Shown: in pieces, positions 4,831 to 36,224 of the stretch
Position numbering within the stretch: position 1 is the first letter of the stretch
How the letters are laid out: each line of letters opens with the position of its first letter
DNA from: Clostridia bacterium
GTDB taxonomy: Bacteria; Bacillota; Clostridia; Christensenellales; Borkfalkiaceae
NCBI GenBank assembly: GCA_028720205.1
Contig: JAQYLE010000039.1
Coordinates: 1 to 64,000 of the forward strand
Direction of reading: 5' to 3'
Length of the DNA stretch: 64,000 nt
Program-made: the position numbers and the translations under genes
Notes under the pieces: generated by a model
Database searches by the model: none
What the model saw: the letters and a program-made list of their open reading frames with translations, nothing else
Told to the model about the DNA's origin: nothing

Positions 4831-5424
4831 ATGAAAGAGAAAAACGTGCTGATCCCCTACGTTGTAGAACGCACGAGCGCGGGCGAAAGATCGTACGATC
4901 TGTATTCCCGTCTGCTGGACGACCGCATCGTATTTTTAAGCGGCGAAATCGACGACGCGCTGGCGAATACCGTAGTGGCGCAACTCATCTATCTGGAAGG
5001 GAAAGAACCGGGAAAGGATATTTCTCTGTACATCAACTCTCCGGGCGGTTCCGTTTCGGCGGGAATGGCGATTTACGATACGATGAATTACGTGAAGTGC
5101 GACGTTTCCACCATCTGCATAGGCATGGCGGCGAGCATGGGCGCGTTTTTGCTTTCCAGCGGCGCAAAAGGCAAGCGGTACGCTCTTCCCAATTCCGAAA
5201 TTATGATTCATCAACCCCTCGGCGGCGCGCAAGGTCAGGCAAGCGATATAAAAATTCAGGCGGAACACATTCTGCGCACCAAGGCGAAACTCAACCGCAT
5301 TCTTGCCGAAAACACGGGAAAAGATTTATCGGTGATTGAAAAGGATACCGACCGCGACAACTATATGTCCGCAGACGAGGCGCGCGAATACGGACTGATC
5401 GATAAGGTTTTTGTAAGGCGATAA
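4831..5424 (+). CDS. clpP: ATP-dependent Clp protease proteolytic subunit
   Basis: [52 protein letters not shown] ggagga. Confidence 0.97.
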
Positions 5425-5603: not shown

Positions 5604-6839
5604 ATGGCGGAAAAAGAAAGACACTGTTCCTTTTGCGGGAAGAAAGAAAGCGAAGTGAGGCAACTCATCGCCTCGCCCGAAGGAACGTTTATCTGTGAAA
5701 ATTGCGTGGAAATCTGCAAGACGATGCTGGACGAAGCGTTGGAAAAGGACGGGGACGAAAACGCCGCCGTGCCTTTGAAAAAACCGGCGGAATTAAAAGC
5801 CGAACTGGATAAATATATCGTGGGGCAGGATAAGGCGAAACGCGTGCTTTCGGTGGCGGTGTACAATCACTATAAGCGCATCAATTCGCTTGCGGATAAA
5901 AAAGACGACGACGTGGAGATTGAAAAGAGCAATATTCTGCTTCTCGGCCCTACGGGCAGCGGAAAAACGCTGCTTGCCAAAACGCTGGCAAAAATTTTAA
6001 ACGTGCCCTTTGCCGCGGCGGACGCTACCACGCTTACCGAAGCGGGCTACGTGGGCGAGGACGTGGAAAATATTCTGTTAAAACTCATTCAGAACGCCGA
6101 CTACGACGTTTCGCGCGCGCAACGGGGTATTATTTATATCGACGAAATCGATAAAATCGCGCGCAAAGGCGAAAACGTATCCATTACGCGCGACGTTTCG
6201 GGCGAGGGCGTGCAGCAGGCTCTTTTGAAAATCATCGAAAGCACGGTGGCTTCCGTGCCTCCGCAGGGCGGCAGAAAGCACCCGCAGCAGGAATGTCTGC
6301 GTATCGATACTACCAATATCCTCTTTATCTGCGGCGGCGCGTTCGTGGGGTTGGATAAAATCGTGGCTTCCAGAAAGGACGATACCACTCTCGGCTTCGG
6401 CGGAAAGGTACGCCTTGGAAAAGACGAAGTGGATTATTCCGCGTTAGAGGACGTAAAGCCGCAGGATCTTACCAGGTTCGGCCTGATTCCCGAATTCGTG
6501 GGCAGACTTCCCATCGTGGTGAATTTAAACCCGTTGGACGAGGAAGCGCTGGTAAAAATTCTCACCGAGCCGAAAAACGCGATTATCAAGCAATATCAGA
6601 AACTCGTGGCGCTGGACGGCGTGAAATTAACCGTGGAAGACGATGCGGTGCGCGAAATCGCGCAGACGGCGATACGCCTGAAAACGGGCGCGCGCGGGTT
6701 GCGTACGATTATAGAAGGCGTGATGACGGGCGTGATGTACAAAATTCCTTCGGAAACGGACGTGGAGGAAGTGATTATTACCAAAGAGTGTCTGACAAAC
6801 GGCGCGGAACCCGTGCTGGTGTATAAAAAATCGGCGTAA
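5604..6839 (+). CDS. clpX: ATP-dependent Clp protease ATP-binding subunit ClpX
   Basis: Zn-finger CSFCGKKES...CENCVEIC; Walker [28 protein letters not shown]. Confidence 0.97.
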
Positions 6840-18761: not shown

Positions 18762-20474
18762 ATGAAAACCAAAAAAATTTCAATCGTAGTATTGTCGGCG
18801 TTGGCGGCTATCCTGTTCGCGCTGGCGGGCATTTTTGCGATCGGCGCGAAAACGAACGGCAAAGCAAGCGCGGAAGACGCGCCCGTAATCACGCTGGGCA
18901 GCGGAAAATGGGCGAGTCCGGATTATACTTTAACGACAAACGGTACCACGTGGACGGGTACGCTGGCAAACGGCGGATATTATTACGGCAATATCTATCC
19001 TGTTTCAAACGGTTCGTTCGAAACGGCGGTTAAAATTTATTTTACGCCGATAGCGGATAACGCTGCGGCCGCCAACTTCAGATTTCACCTTGCCGACTAT
19101 TCCGGCGCGGCGGAAGTAAAGCAATTTGTAATAAAAAAAACAGAGCCTTTCACGAGAGCAGACGTATCCTGTTATTTCGATAAGAATTATCTGGTTTCTT
19201 TTTCATCATGGAATGCCGAGCCGAAAATCGTAGAATTGACAACCGTAACCCTCGGCACGGGACGATGGGCGACGGATTCTTCAAAAACGGTAAGTTTGAA
19301 TAATTCGACGTGGAGCGGGGCGTTGCTTTCCGGATACCACTACGGCAATTTGTATTCGAGAGACGGATTGTTGTATTCGGGCGCGTACATTGACAAAAAC
19401 GCGAACGCAACCAATACCGAGTCAAATATTATTTTTAATTTGGGAAAAGTGACGGGGGGTGACGAGATAAGCGAATTCGTTGTAAAAGCAAACACTCTTT
19501 TCGCCAAAGGCGACAATTCCAGCGCGTTATGCGTGGATAAAGATTATTTCATCAAGTACGGCAAATGGGAAAGCGCCCCTGCCGTAATGCCGCTTGCAGA
19601 CGTAGTAAGCGTAACGCTCGGCGAGGGAAAGGGTACCGATTTAGAGACAAAGAGAATTTCGTTTAATAATTCCGTATGGAGCGGCGTGCTGGCAAACGGC
19701 GGATATTATTACGGCAATATTTATGCTTTGGACGGAACGAAATTCGAAGCCGTTTCTTCAAGTGCGCTGCCCGTATATATAATTCCCGGCGCTTCAAACG
19801 CTGCGGCTAACATCGTCATCGATTTGTCTAACGTACAAAACGCTTCCGACATAACTGAATTCGTACTTAAAAAGAGCGAAGCGTTTACAAGGGCGGGTGT
19901 TCCATTCTACTTCGATCAAGATTACGTAATTACTTGTAATTGGGGCGGCGTGCCTAACGTTTCCTGCAACTTTACAATGAATACGGGCGCGGCTATCCGG
20001 CTGGGCGAAGTGAACGGGTTAAGGTTCAGCGCAAACGTTGCCAAGTCCGTGGTGGAAGGTTATAGGAACGCGGGGTATACCGTTTCCGCGGGTATGGTGA
20101 TTCTGCCGTACGATTACATAGAAAAGTACGGCGACTTTTCCGCTACGAACGTGTTCGGCGAGGCGTACAAAGGCGTTCGGATTATCGATCTTGCGGCGGA
20201 ACTTATCGAAGAAGACGAGGAAACCTACCGCATTAACGGCTCTATCGTTGAAATTAAAGACGAGAATCTGCAAAGAGCGTTTGTGGGCAGGGCGTATCTG
20301 AAACTTGAAAAAGGCGGCGGCGTTACCTATATTATGTCCGCTTATGCCGATTTTAACATTGCCAACAACTCGCGTACGGTAATGGATATCGCTCAGGCGG
20401 CGTACGACGACTCGGGTACGTCCGAAGAAAATAAAACTGCTTTACAGACCTTGTATTTAAGTAAAAAAAAATGA
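18762..20474 (+). CDS. Secreted protein with three ~115-aa repeat modules and a C-terminal 'GAAIRLGEVNGLRFSA' domain (protein A)
   Basis: Signal peptide MKTKKISIVVLSALAAILFALAGIFAIGAKTNGKASA; modules VTLGxGxW...WSGxLANGGYYYGNIY...EFVLKK...; RBS aaggaggg. Confidence 0.85.
   Translation: MKTKKISIVVLSALAAILFALAGIFAIGAKTNGKASAEDAPVITLGSGKWASPDYTLTTNGTTWTGTLANGGYYYGNIYPVSNGSFETAVKIYFTPIADNAAAANFRFHLADYSGAAEVKQFVIKKTEPFTRADVSCYFDKNYLVSFSSWNAEPKIVELTTVTLGTGRWATDSSKTVSLNNSTWSGALLSGYHYGNLYSRDGLLYSGAYIDKNANATNTESNIIFNLGKVTGGDEISEFVVKANTLFAKGDNSSALCVDKDYFIKYGKWESAPAVMPLADVVSVTLGEGKGTDLETKRISFNNSVWSGVLANGGYYYGNIYALDGTKFEAVSSSALPVYIIPGASNAAANIVIDLSNVQNASDITEFVLKKSEAFTRAGVPFYFDQDYVITCNWGGVPNVSCNFTMNTGAAIRLGEVNGLRFSANVAKSVVEGYRNAGYTVSAGMVILPYDYIEKYGDFSATNVFGEAYKGVRIIDLAAELIEEDEETYRINGSIVEIKDENLQRAFVGRAYLKLEKGGGVTYIMSAYADFNIANNSRTVMDIAQAAYDDSGTSEENKTALQTLYLSKKK
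18819..18900 (+). repeat. 82-bp perfect direct repeat, copy 1
   Basis: gcgctggcgggcatttttgcgatcggcg...gtaatcacgctgggca, identical to 23714-23795. Confidence 0.95.
20463..20471 (+). other. A9 homopolymer at the gene A / DUF4838 junction (candidate -1 slip site)
   Basis: AGT AAA AAA AAA TGA; downstream ORF begins ATG at 20471 in the -1 frame. Confidence 0.55.
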
Positions 20475-22204
20475 ATTTTGTAACTGACGGAAACACGAAT
20501 TATTGTATTAAAGTTCCGCAGGGCGCGTCTTCTATGATCGGCTATGCGGCGAGCGAGTTGCAAACGCTGTTTGCCGAGGCGACGGGCGCCGCTCTTTCCG
20601 TGGGCGACGGCGGCGAAAGATTCGTCAGCCTTGGCAGAACGGAAGAATTTATCAACGCGGGATACTCCGTAACCGAGGCGGAAACGGGCAAGACGGGCTT
20701 TATTATAAAAACGGACGACAAAGGCAACGTTTTTATTGCGGGGAGCGAGGACGTAGGCACGCTGAACGGCGTTTACGGCTTTTTGGAAAAAACGCTTAAT
20801 TTCGACTGTTTTACCAAGGGCGTATATCATATCGACAAGGTAAGCGAATTATCTTTTATGCCGTTCAACCTTACCGAAAAGCCGAGTTTCGATTACAGAC
20901 AGGTGAATTATGCGGAACTGCGCGAAGACGAAACCACTTACCGCCGTATGCGCATGCAACCTGCGCCCGAACAGTACGTTACGGGCAACGCCTATCACAA
21001 TTCGATAGAAATTCTCACGTATAAACGGGTGTTAAACGGCGAAAGCAAAGACGACGTTATCAAAGAATATACCGCAAGCGGTTGGATAAACAACGGGCAA
21101 CTGTGCTATTCTGCCGCGGATATGCGCGCGGCGTTTATCGAAAGTCTTAAATTGTATCTGCAATCCAAGTATTGTAATCTTTCGCGCAATCTTATGGTGA
21201 TCGGCATGGAAGACGCGGTGACCTGGTGCGACTGTTCCGCTTGCGGCGCCGCCCCTTCCAAGGTTTACGCGGAGTTTATGAACGCCGTGGCGGAGGCGAT
21301 TAACGCGGAGCGCGAAAGCGCGGGCGAATCCCCCGTTACTTTTCTGATGTTCGCGTACTACTATACGCTGGAACCGCCTAAGGGCGTTACTTTAAACAAG
21401 AACGTGGGCGTGTTGTTCGCTCCCATTAAAGCGAGGTTCACGCTGGGGCTTACCGACGCGGAAAACGCCATGTACGAAACGGCGCTTGCCGGCTGGGCGG
21501 CGCTTACCGACAATTTGTACGGCTGGACGTATAACGCGTATTTCGGGCAGACCCTCGTTATGTACGATACGTTCGGCGTATTGCAGGAAAATTACAAACT
21601 GCTTTTGAAGTACGGCGTGAAAGGGCTGTACGATCAGACGGAATCGTATATGGCGGTATCTTCGGGCTTCGGGCGGCTGAAAGGATACCTGCAATCCAAA
21701 CTTTTGTGGAACGTGAACGCGGACGCGGAAGCGCTGACGGATAAATTTTTCAACGCCGTTTACGGCAATGCGGCGGAAACGATGAAAACGGTGTTTAACG
21801 AAACGCGCGCGTACTACAAACACCTGTACGAAACGGCAGATAAATTCAACGGCCAGACGGGGTTGGCGGATTCCGATAAAAGAAAATATTCCGAAGGCTC
21901 GGTGGATTTTGCCGCAAGTTATGCCTGCTTACAAAGCGGCGGTTCGGAATACGCCGCGTTCAAAACCAAACTGGAAGGCTGGATTTCCGCGCTGAATACG
22001 GCGAAATCCGCCGCCGCCGCAGAAGAAGCGGAAAGAATAAAATTAGAAACTCTGCAATACCGTTATCTGTATCTCAGAATTTACGGCGAAACGGATACGA
22101 TTACCAAAGCGGACTTTAAAACGGATATCGATTCCTTCGGAATCCTTTATTATAAAGAAGGCAAAAAAGTTACCGAACTCTGGCAGGAATGGGGGCTTGA
22201 ATAA
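20471..22204 (+). CDS. DUF4838-like protein (glycoside-hydrolase-associated)
   Basis: N-terminal deoxyhexosidase/GH67N-like fold pattern (YAASELQTLFAEATGAALSV...VFIAGSEDVGTLNGVYGFLEKTLNFDCF) plus DUF4838-like body; no signal peptide and no Shine-Dalgarno before the ATG. Confidence 0.75.
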   Translation: MNFVTDGNTNYCIKVPQGASSMIGYAASELQTLFAEATGAALSVGDGGERFVSLGRTEEFINAGYSVTEAETGKTGFIIKTDDKGNVFIAGSEDVGTLNGVYGFLEKTLNFDCFTKGVYHIDKVSELSFMPFNLTEKPSFDYRQVNYAELREDETTYRRMRMQPAPEQYVTGNAYHNSIEILTYKRVLNGESKDDVIKEYTASGWINNGQLCYSAADMRAAFIESLKLYLQSKYCNLSRNLMVIGMEDAVTWCDCSACGAAPSKVYAEFMNAVAEAINAERESAGESPVTFLMFAYYYTLEPPKGVTLNKNVGVLFAPIKARFTLGLTDAENAMYETALAGWAALTDNLYGWTYNAYFGQTLVMYDTFGVLQENYKLLLKYGVKGLYDQTESYMAVSSGFGRLKGYLQSKLLWNVNADAEALTDKFFNAVYGNAAETMKTVFNETRAYYKHLYETADKFNGQTGLADSDKRKYSEGSVDFAASYACLQSGGSEYAAFKTKLEGWISALNTAKSAAAAEEAERIKLETLQYRYLYLRIYGETDTITKADFKTDIDSFGILYYKEGKKVTELWQEWGLE

Positions 22205-22221: not shown

Positions 22222-22362
22222 ATGAAATACGTTAAACCGGAAATTATTATAAAAACAATCGGCAACGGCGGAATATATACCGACGTTATAACCGTCTCGG
22301 GCGAAACGGGAGGAACGCCGGACGACCCGTGGAGCAAAGATTCTTACACGATAGAAAAATAG
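22222..22362 (+). CDS. Small 46-aa peptide: MKYVKPEIIIKTIGNGGIYTDVITVSGETGGTPDDPWSKDSYTIEK
   Basis: Good SD (aaaggagag) upstream of ATG; short ORF absent from the track, directly downstream of the DUF4838 gene and upstream of a strong terminator. Confidence 0.65.
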   Translation: MKYVKPEIIIKTIGNGGIYTDVITVSGETGGTPDDPWSKDSYTIEK

Positions 22363-23650: not shown

Positions 23651-25708
23651 ATGAACACAAAGAGCAGAAAACTTTCAATCGCATTGCTTTCGGCACTGGC
23701 TGCGGTAGCGCTTGCGCTGGCGGGCATTTTTGCGATCGGCGCGAAAACGAACGGCAAAGCAAGCGCGGAAGACGCGCCCGTAATCACGCTGGGCACGGGC
23801 GGCACCGGCAGATGGGCAAGCGCCAACGAAAATATGTCGGTAAAATTCGGCAACGTTACGTGGACGGGCGAACTTGCGAACGGCGGCAATTATTACGGTA
23901 ATATATATTCGGTAGAAGACGGAACCAGATACGCTTCTCTTTCCGATCCTTCCGACGCAACGCCCGTTTATTTCACCCCGACCGCTTCGGGGGAAAACGG
24001 AAACTTCGTATTCTTTTTGAAAAACGTTGTGACGGCGGAAACCAAAGATAACATAAAGCAGTTTCTCATCAAAAAGACGGAGCCGTTTACGCGAGCGGGA
24101 GTTTCCTGTTATTTCGATAACGACTACGTCGTTACCTGCAACTGGGGCGGCGGACCTTCCGCTTCCGTATACGTTGCGCCCGCTACCGTCAGCCTCGGCA
24201 CGGGCGTCTGGTCCACGTCTACCAGCGCTTCCGGAGATCCGCGTTATACCGTTTCGATGAATTCTTCCGCAGACGACGGCTCCTTTATTAAAGGGTATTA
24301 TTACGGCAACATTTATTCTACGGACGGCAGCGTATATACGGGGGCGTATCTCGATTTTCTTGTAAAAGAAGGCGAGGAAGAAACCGCCTCGGGAAAAATC
24401 GTGGCGACTTTCACAAACGTGAAAGGCGCGGAAAAAATAACGGAATTTGTGCTGAAAAGCACCGATTTGTTTAAAAAAGGCGACGGAAGATGTCCGTTCT
24501 ACTTCGATAAAAATTACGTCGTCACCGTGAACTGGGACGGCGTGCCTGCGATAAGAGAAGACCTGCGCACGTTCGTTTCCCTGTCGGGCGGCGTTTCTTC
24601 CGACGAAGCCGAAAAATCGGTTACCGCAGGCGTAAGCGCGCTGAACGGAGTGGCGCCTTCGGGCGAGTACAAGGGCAACGTTTACCCTACTTCGGGCGAG
24701 AAGATAGAAAACGTAGTTTTTGCGATAGAAGCCGCGGAGGAAAGCAACGCGCTGAAAATAACGCTTCCCGATACTTCTGTTACCGATTTCGTGGTGAAAG
24801 CGGGCGAATCGTATGCCGGTACGGACGGGCGCGAAATTTACTTCGATAAAGATTACAGAATTACCCTTTCGTGGGGCGAAACTCCCGTAATCAAACAAGA
24901 CAACCGTATTTTCCTTACTCTTTCGGAAGGCGCGGCGACAACCGACGCAGCCGAAAAATCGGTTACCGTCGTTACGTCGGTGAGAGGAGCGGTGATCGGC
25001 GAAAAGGCGTACGAAGGTTATGCCGTGGATAAGAACGGCGAGAAGACGGGCGTTTCGCTTTACGTTACCGTCGGTACCGAAAACGCAACGGTTAAAGTCG
25101 TTCTCGATTCTACCGATACGGAGTTCTTCGCATTGAGAAAAGCGGATAAATTCGTTGACGAAGACGGCAACGAACTGTTCTTCAACAAAGACTGTACCGT
25201 AAGTTGCGTCTGGGGCGAAGAGGCGACGGTTACCGTTATAGGCGCAACCGAACACGTATGGAGCGATGAAAAGACGCATACGGGCGCGGATTGCACCGAA
25301 AAAAGTTACAAATACAAAGAATGTATCATTCACGGCGATACCGAAGTTACGGAAGAATTGCCCGACAATCATCGGTACGGCGACGTGATTACCGAAGATT
25401 CCACCTGCGCTCAAAAAGGCCGCACGTATAAAAAATGCGAGGTGTGCGGGCACGAGGAGAATTTAAGCGTCATCGAAAAGAAGGAACATACGCCGTCCGA
25501 TTGGATTACCGATACAAATCCCACTACCGAAGCGGAAGGTTCGGCGCATAAAGAATGTACGGCGTGCGGCGAAACGCTGGAAAGCAAAGTATTGCCCAAG
25601 GCCGAAAAGAGCGGTTGCTCCGGCAACGCGTTTGTAAACGCGATGATTCCCCTTACCGTTTCGGCGGCGGCGCTCTTCGTTTTGAAAAAGAGAAAAAACA
25701 AAGAATAA
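23651..25708 (+). CDS. Secreted/surface protein with four ~115-aa repeat modules, Cys-motif repeats and C-terminal TM/basic anchor (protein B)
   Basis: Signal peptide as in protein A; YYGNIYS-DG...EFVLK...YFDKNYVVTVNWDGVP modules; CxxCG repeats (KKCEVCGHEE, KECTACGETL); C-terminus GCSGNAFVNAMIPLTVSAAALFVLKKRKNKE. Confidence 0.85.
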   Translation: MNTKSRKLSIALLSALAAVALALAGIFAIGAKTNGKASAEDAPVITLGTGGTGRWASANENMSVKFGNVTWTGELANGGNYYGNIYSVEDGTRYASLSDPSDATPVYFTPTASGENGNFVFFLKNVVTAETKDNIKQFLIKKTEPFTRAGVSCYFDNDYVVTCNWGGGPSASVYVAPATVSLGTGVWSTSTSASGDPRYTVSMNSSADDGSFIKGYYYGNIYSTDGSVYTGAYLDFLVKEGEEETASGKIVATFTNVKGAEKITEFVLKSTDLFKKGDGRCPFYFDKNYVVTVNWDGVPAIREDLRTFVSLSGGVSSDEAEKSVTAGVSALNGVAPSGEYKGNVYPTSGEKIENVVFAIEAAEESNALKITLPDTSVTDFVVKAGESYAGTDGREIYFDKDYRITLSWGETPVIKQDNRIFLTLSEGAATTDAAEKSVTVVTSVRGAVIGEKAYEGYAVDKNGEKTGVSLYVTVGTENATVKVVLDSTDTEFFALRKADKFVDEDGNELFFNKDCTVSCVWGEEATVTVIGATEHVWSDEKTHTGADCTEKSYKYKECIIHGDTEVTEELPDNHRYGDVITEDSTCAQKGRTYKKCEVCGHEENLSVIEKKEHTPSDWITDTNPTTEAEGSAHKECTACGETLESKVLPKAEKSGCSGNAFVNAMIPLTVSAAALFVLKKRKNKE
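23714..23795 (+). repeat. 82-bp perfect direct repeat, copy 2
   Basis: Identical to 18819-18900. Confidence 0.95.
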
Positions 25709-34568: not shown

Positions 34569-36224
34569 ATGATAGACGAACGAGTCAGAGAGTTTGTATT
34601 TCCCGTTAAAATCAAGGCGACGGGCGGCGCGGTGGAAGGCGAGAATTTTTTACTTAAAGAAAAGATTCTGCAGATCGCTACGGTAGAAGACGAACTCTGT
34701 AAAATGAGCGGTAAGAGCCATGTTATTCTTGATTTCGGCAAAGAATTATACGGCGGAATCAGAATTCTTACCAAAAGAACGTATAAAAAAAGCAAGGAAA
34801 ACGCGCCTGTTTTAATGCGATTGCGTTTCGGAGAATCATTGACGGAAACGTGCGCGGAATTAGGCGAAAAGAACGCTACCAACGACCACGCCGTAAGGGA
34901 TATGACGATAACGCTCGGTTCTCATTCCGATATGGAATTCGGCAATACAGGGTTCAGATTTTTGCGTATCGATCTTCTATCCGACGACGACGCGATTCTT
35001 ATCAAATCGGCGGTGGCGGTATACGTGCACCGTGATTTACGCCCCGCAGGCGGTTTTCACTGCGACGACGAAAGACTCAACGAAATATATTCCGTTGCTT
35101 CGCGCACCTGTATGCTTTGTATGCAGAGTATGTTATGGGACGGCATAAAGCGCGATAAACTCGTATGGATGGGAGATATGCACCCGGAAATGATGACGAT
35201 TCAGTGCCTGTTCGGTTACGATAAATGTATCGACGACGCGCTGGACTTCGTAGTGGCGCAGTTTAAACTCCCCGAATACATCAACTTAAAACCTTCGTAC
35301 TCGTTGTGGTTCGTTGTAGTATTGTACGATTGGTACATGCAGAACGGCGATAAAAACCTTTTGATAAAACACGCGGGATATATCGAAGATCTGTTCGATA
35401 ATCTCGGCGCGCTGGTAGACTAAAACGGAGATATGCACCTGAAAGGCTACTTTTTCGATTGGCCCACGCACCCCGATTCCGACAGCAACGCGGGCGGATC
35501 GGACGATAGCAAAAACGGCGTAAAGGCGTTGTTTTTAACCGCGCTGCGCTACGCGCGCGAAATTTTCGGCATTCTCGGCAACGACGGCGCGCGGCTTACC
35601 GCGCTTGAAAACAGGCTGTTGAAAGGCAGGCTTCCCGCGCCTGTAAAAAAGCAGGCGGCGGCGTTCAAGGCGCTGTGCGAAAACAACTTTTCCGCCGAAG
35701 TATGTAAAACGCTTACGGAAGGAGGCTGCAAGGGGTTTTCAACGTTTACGGCTTTCTATCTGCTCGACGCTATCGCAAAATGCGGAGAAAAAGAGCGCGC
35801 CGTACAGATTATGAAAGAGTATTACGGGGCGATGCTGGATAAAGGCGCTACCTCTTTTTGGGAAGACTTCAATATAGAATGGGTTAAAAACACGGGCAGA
35901 ATCGACGAATTCCCCAAAGAAGGAGAAGAAGATATTCACGGCGACAGAGGCGATTATTGCTATAAAGGGTTTCGGCACAGCCTTTGTCACGGCTGGTCGT
36001 CCGCGCCCGTGCCGTTTATAACAAGATATATTCTGGGCGTAAACGTGTTGTCGGCGGGATGCGGCAAAATAGCGATACGGCCTTATCTGCCCCGCGGCGT
36101 AAACCGCGCGGAAGGAACGTATCCCACGCCGTACGGCAATATTTATATCAGACACGAAAGAATTAACGGCGAAATCGTTTCCGAAATCAACGCGCCGGAA
36201 GAAATTGAAATTATCCGCAACTGA
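34569..36224 (+). pseudogene. GH78-like (alpha-L-rhamnosidase-like) gene interrupted by one in-frame TAA at 35421-35423
   Basis: ORFs 34569..35423 and 35433..36224 share a frame and read continuously ...LFDNLGALVD*NGDMHLKGYFFDWPTHPDSDSNAGG...; 6-hairpin glycosidase motifs (DGIKRDKLVWMGDMHPE). Confidence 0.75.

Follow-up and report, generated by a model that had tools for sequence, protein, structure and literature searches.

A nine-adenine run between an exported X-domain protein and a DUF4838 module as a candidate slippage site in a Clostridia bacterium

Within the 64-kb stretch of DNA analysed here (the window), the gene for a secreted protein (gene A) ends in nine consecutive adenines, and a second open reading frame (ORF B), encoding a DUF4838 module, begins on the last of them in the -1 frame. 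Sequence comparison supports the view that A and B are parts of one exported protein of a uronate/glycan-utilisation locus, and our analysis makes slippage a plausible means of joining them. The best single explanation, which we advance tentatively but ahead of translational coupling and of an indel or miscall, is that A and B make up a single modular exported protein and that -1-type slippage on the A9 run, probably by RNA polymerase, gives access to its DUF4838 part. Slippage at the run, the ratio of its products and the secretion of the A-B fusion are what we infer from the evidence below.

The junction and the modules on either side

The features of the region are as follows:

18762..20474 (+), gene A: 570 aa, with a signal peptide, three repeat modules of no recognised family and a C-terminal X domain
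18762..18872 (+), signal peptide of gene A (approximate extent): MKTKKISIVVLSALAAILFALAGIFAIGAKTNGKASA
19980..20459 (+), X domain of gene A: C-terminal helix at ...LQTLYL; AlphaFold pLDDT 92
20462..20464 (+), TAA: closes the -1 frame just 5' of the A9 run
20463..20471 (+), A9 run: candidate slippage site, with the in-phase heptamer A_AAA_AAA at 20465-20471
20471..22204 (+), ORF B: 577 aa, GH67N-like plus DUF4838, alpha-glucuronidase-like fold, in the -1 frame, lacking a Shine-Dalgarno (SD) sequence and a signal peptide
20472..20474 (+), TGA stop of gene A: shares ATGA (20471-20474) with the ATG of ORF B
22222..22362 (+), small peptide ORF: 46 aa; in relatives its family usually trails large secreted, often X-type, proteins

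Gene A ends AGT AAA AAA AAA TGA, and the ATG of ORF B (20471-20473) overlaps this stop in the -1 frame relative to gene A. The first-pass annotation had described this arrangement correctly to the base, and had rightly placed the TAA that shuts the -1 frame upstream. Since that codon occupies 20462-20464, a join from A to B is confined to 20465-20471, and any fusion must arise inside the run. With ten adenines in place of nine, the two ORFs merge and read S-KKK-MNFVTDG. The junction contains an in-phase A_AAA_AAA of the X_XXY_YYZ type used in -1 ribosomal frameshifting, a run within the length range of dnaX/tssM-type transcriptional slippage (approximately nine or more A or T), and the ATGA stop/start overlap of a coupled gene pair. 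The run sits on a domain boundary, with the X domain and the DUF4838 module both complete on either side.

The true start of gene A is ATG 18762, which is preceded by a strong SD (-10.3 kcal/mol) and opens the signal peptide MKTKKISIVVLSALAAILFALAGIFAIG. For ORF B no SD was detected (+0.4 kcal/mol), so that the end of gene A lacks the ribosome-binding site of a coupled pair; the proposal that gene A brings the signal peptide while B has neither SD nor signal peptide was confirmed. Gene A has no Pfam match, X domain included, and the fold of the X domain has no PDB match at E < 0.001. The X domain folds confidently and ends with ...LQTLYL immediately before the A9 run, a position shared by 28 relatives. 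A paralog of gene A at 23651-25705 shares its repeat modules at 47% identity and has a hydrophobic stretch and a basic tail at its C-terminus; it is likely membrane- or wall-anchored.

ORF B matches PF16126 (DUF4838; 2.3e-43, 149 bits against a curated cut-off of 26.6) and PF03648 (GH67 N-terminal; 3.4e-06). Its model (pLDDT 89) has the first predicted strand beginning at residue 2, and the ATG falls exactly on the domain start. Foldseek aligns the model with GH115 and GH67 alpha-glucuronidases (E 1e-12 to 7e-9, TM approximately 0.5). By this fold resemblance the module is alpha-glucuronidase-like, and as a DUF4838 module it is complete; its HMM and fold are those of DUF4838 (PF16126) proteins and of the GH67/GH115 enzymes.

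The genome (82 contigs, 1.94 Mb) places A and B close to an AraC regulator, two ABC permeases, exported GH123-like and other lipoproteins, and a 526-aa lipoprotein without a Pfam match that resembles a binding protein. The locus also holds genes of uronate catabolism, namely uxaC, a UxaA-type dehydratase and a mannitol-dehydrogenase-family reductase, and an alpha-glucuronidase-like enzyme would suit such a uronate-using locus. Window genes with Pfam matches appear intact except for a signal-less GH78 alpha-rhamnosidase-like gene (34569-36224, approximately 13 kb downstream), which has one in-frame TAA at 35421-35423. Both GH78 halves retain their family matches, so that the stop may mark a pseudogene or an error, or may divide a gene made of two parts.

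DUF4838 and X-domain proteins in relatives

To place ORF B among its relatives, we compiled 168 distinct DUF4838 ORFs, mainly from 57 genomes of the genus with a few from the wider order, and assigned them to classes by script. Signal peptides are present in 105, and another 24 form in-frame parts of longer ORFs; approximately 14 are signal-less with an SD of their own. An SD is missing only in ORF B and at four other loci (L105, L106, L261 and L301). In the DUF4838 tree (155 rows), ORF B lies inside a clade of 104 rows (SH-aLRT 99) comprising 80 signal-peptide and 21 in-frame-fused members, one startless and one other signal-less member; nearly all members of this clade have an export signal or an in-frame fusion, unlike B, and signal-less DUF4838 proteins mostly fall in a separate clade. 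The first-pass annotation had suggested looking for single-ORF orthologs; in 10 relatives X and DUF4838 are joined in one ORF, with X always nearer the N-terminus, and an exported X-DUF4838 protein is therefore a known architecture in the genus.

Two further species have a similar junction. At both L105 and L106, the ORF downstream of an X gene encodes DUF4838 in the -1 frame, and no start codon precedes the domain. L106 (G013:C12, around 5185-5276) has an in-phase T_TTT_TTT, and the run at L105 (G012:C62, around 6035-6066) is T5; a stimulatory RNA structure was found at neither junction. No ortholog above approximately 36% identity was found, and the X/DUF4838 linkers of the in-frame fusions contain no conserved A-run. 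Run lengths, whose comparison was also proposed at first pass, are thus T7 at L106 and T5 at L105, and none of these distant orthologs conserves the A-run. No same-species contig with the junction was found in genome and viral contigs with the pattern GTATTTAAGT-N(6-13)-TGAATTTTGTAACTG, nor did a protein scan of the genome contigs yield same-species copies.

We scanned 1.33 Mb of coding DNA, a sample centred on DUF4838 and X genes, for broken frames, discarding antisense and ordinary-gene rows by eye. Three frameshift-type breaks were recognised (the window, L105 and L106), all of them -1 and all at the entry to DUF4838. As DUF4838 entry makes up a few percent of the coding DNA in this sample, such clustering is, by rough estimate, unlikely to arise from random error. 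The remaining apparent breaks are in-frame stops, in the GH78 gene of the window and at boundaries in L304, L312 and L313. In these three loci, single stops lie between long open stretches in or beside DUF4838 genes, with TAG in L313 (G017:C71) and L304 (G012:C168) and TAA in L312 (G016:C63).

Taken together, the export of B's clade, the single ORFs holding X and DUF4838, the lack of an SD and a signal peptide in B and the startless -1 junctions of two other species argue that A and B form one exported protein. In favour of slippage we also count the small-peptide gene, which trails 14 of 56 X proteins versus 6 of approximately 150 DUF4838 ORFs: it stands directly after B in the window, and likewise in L106.

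Routes from gene A to ORF B

Is the A9 run itself out of the ordinary? AAA makes up 77% of lysine codons in the window, so that three successive AAA codons are not odd in themselves. Still, neither the window nor 1.33 Mb of coding DNA from the genus contains another A9/T9; in the latter sample KKK is spelled as nine adenines in 1 of 106 cases (approximately 25 expected), and among 696 ORF ends none but gene A has a terminal A-run longer than 7. The genome as a whole, however, contains approximately 38 runs of nine or more adenines, several of them within long ORFs that stay open. The idea that A9 is unique in the coding DNA of this genome was rejected on these grounds; the single occurrence in 1.33 Mb of relatives is not taken as proof, and we regard the run as unusual by place, not by kind. 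A 12-mer, AAAAAAAAATGA, has 14 matches in 37 genomes and joins two long ORFs only here and at L150. Most matches are intergenic or lack a long ORF on each side, and the 12-mer was rejected as a signal marking junctions throughout the genus.

The slippage fusion would work as follows. The majority of ribosomes would halt at TGA 20472 and release the gene A product alone. Addition of one A in the run by RNA polymerase (mRNA A10) would give ...LSKKK-MNFVTDG... and an A-B protein of 1147 aa, against the roughly 1,150 aa first estimated, with a junction peptide spanning LYLSKKK-MNFVTDGNTNYC. The signal peptide, the repeats and the X domain would come from gene A and the enzyme-like module from B, and a minority share of the surface protein would carry that module. 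A ribosomal -1 slip on A_AAA_AAA would be the less likely route: we found no stimulatory RNA fold 3' of the run (z -1.0 to +0.6) and no SD-like element 5' of it, so that ribosomal frameshifting would have to act without its usual stimulators. The earlier fusion proposal is partly supported: comparison favours one exported protein and slippage is a plausible way of joining its parts, but a conserved A-run and ribosomal stimulators were looked for and not found; its dnaX-type label fits best in the sense of transcriptional slippage, classical ribosomal -1 stimulators not having been found. Re-initiation at ATGA might instead yield B on its own, and the two routes may operate side by side. Counting against slippage are the position of the ATG exactly at the domain start, needless for an obligate extension, the signal-less DUF4838 ORFs with an SD of their own (of which L278 has the same start), the T5 run of L105, the broken GH78 gene nearby and the many A9 runs elsewhere in the genome.

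A less probable account is an ordinary operon with ATGA coupling, in which re-initiation at ATG 20471 would produce B as a separate, signal-less, cytosolic enzyme with imported sugars as substrates; the A-rich stretch would aid initiation without an SD. ATGA is a standard overlap of coupled genes, several such pairs occur in the window, and the RNA around the start of B has little structure. GH67 relatives can be intracellular, signal-less DUF4838 proteins beginning at or near the first residue of B do occur (L278 at the same point, the second copy in L106, and L259), and the locus encodes ABC-transporter permeases as well as a GH78 without a signal peptide. On the other hand, 1.40 Mb of DNA from the genus holds 34 NTGA stop/start overlaps; every bona fide one has an SD or a nearby SD-bearing alternative start, and B is the only case with neither. 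Coupling also sits poorly with the almost wholly exported clade of B, and it leaves unexplained L105 and L106, where no start codon precedes the domain.

We consider it unlikely that the functional gene is a single ORF whose run either has ten adenines in reality, one having been dropped in the assembly or consensus, or lost one adenine recently (an indel, a pseudogene or phase variation). Homopolymers are indel hot spots, X+DUF4838 single ORFs exist, a GH78 gene is interrupted 13 kb downstream, and an apparently continuous low-complexity protein at L150 is split at AAAAAAAAATGA. Yet the frame stays open across nine further A/T runs of 8 nt in window genes and across several A9 runs elsewhere in the genome, which argues against poor homopolymer calling, and the other Pfam-matched window genes look intact. 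The break moreover coincides exactly with both a domain boundary and an ATG, and three of three frameshift-type breaks at DUF4838 entry are unlike random errors.

Known systems and neighbouring observations

For the slippage fusion there are precedents. Bacterial RNA polymerase slips efficiently at nine A's or T's (PMC5009743), and in Citrobacter rodentium tssM1 a poly-A slip before the stop restores the full-length protein at 20-25% (PMC4256274). The A-B junction resembles tssM1 and Yersinia tssM3 (PMC4256274) in having an A-run shortly before a stop, where one extra A joins the downstream frame and two length variants are expected. It differs in having nine A's rather than 11, in being known from sequence where both tssM forms were shown by experiment, and in its C-terminal part, which is a whole enzyme module with its own ATG. 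Thermus thermophilus dnaX likewise has a nine-base run at the frame junction, and its mRNAs gain extra A's (PMC5009743, PMC3711429), but there the long form is the encoded frame, whereas at the A-B junction the long form would require a slip. The -1 frameshifting of IS elements and lambda G-GT shares the upstream product, the -1 fusion to a downstream ORF and the in-phase A_AAA_AAA; in contrast, no stimulatory SD or RNA structure was found at the A-B junction, which belongs to neither a mobile element nor a phage. ATGA-coupled operons share the four-base overlap, but B lacks an SD, unlike the other bona fide pairs in the genus sample.

Fusion by A-run slippage is already known, and the setting here, if real, would be new: frame slippage would set the ratio of plain to enzyme-bearing surface protein in a glycan-using bacterium, and gene callers would wrongly class the DUF4838 enzyme as cytosolic. 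We know of no example of slippage used to set such a ratio. If the slippage fusion is not true, the junction would be a clean case of an A-run mimicking a recoding site. A broader reading, that exported X-domain proteins recurrently carry a -1-frame DUF4838 and that Gag-Pol-like slippage fixes a small enzyme-bearing share, with the window (A9), L106 (T7) and L105 as three independent instances, is more doubtful than any of the above.

The protein split at L150 (G043:C5, 1501-1512), in another family of the order, is apparently one zinc-ribbon and Asn/Glu/Ser-rich protein that AAAAAAAAATGA divides into two long, -1-related ORFs. The small-peptide family comprises 30 distinct ORFs of 35-57 aa; across many species of the genus they sit directly 3' of large secreted proteins. 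Its members follow a pattern like MKKYxxPxxxxxxxx(D/E)V(I/V)(T/R)(A/T)S with an acidic tail after it, an SD is often present, and its loci include the window (22222-22362), L081, L083, L085, L092, L095, L106 and L111.
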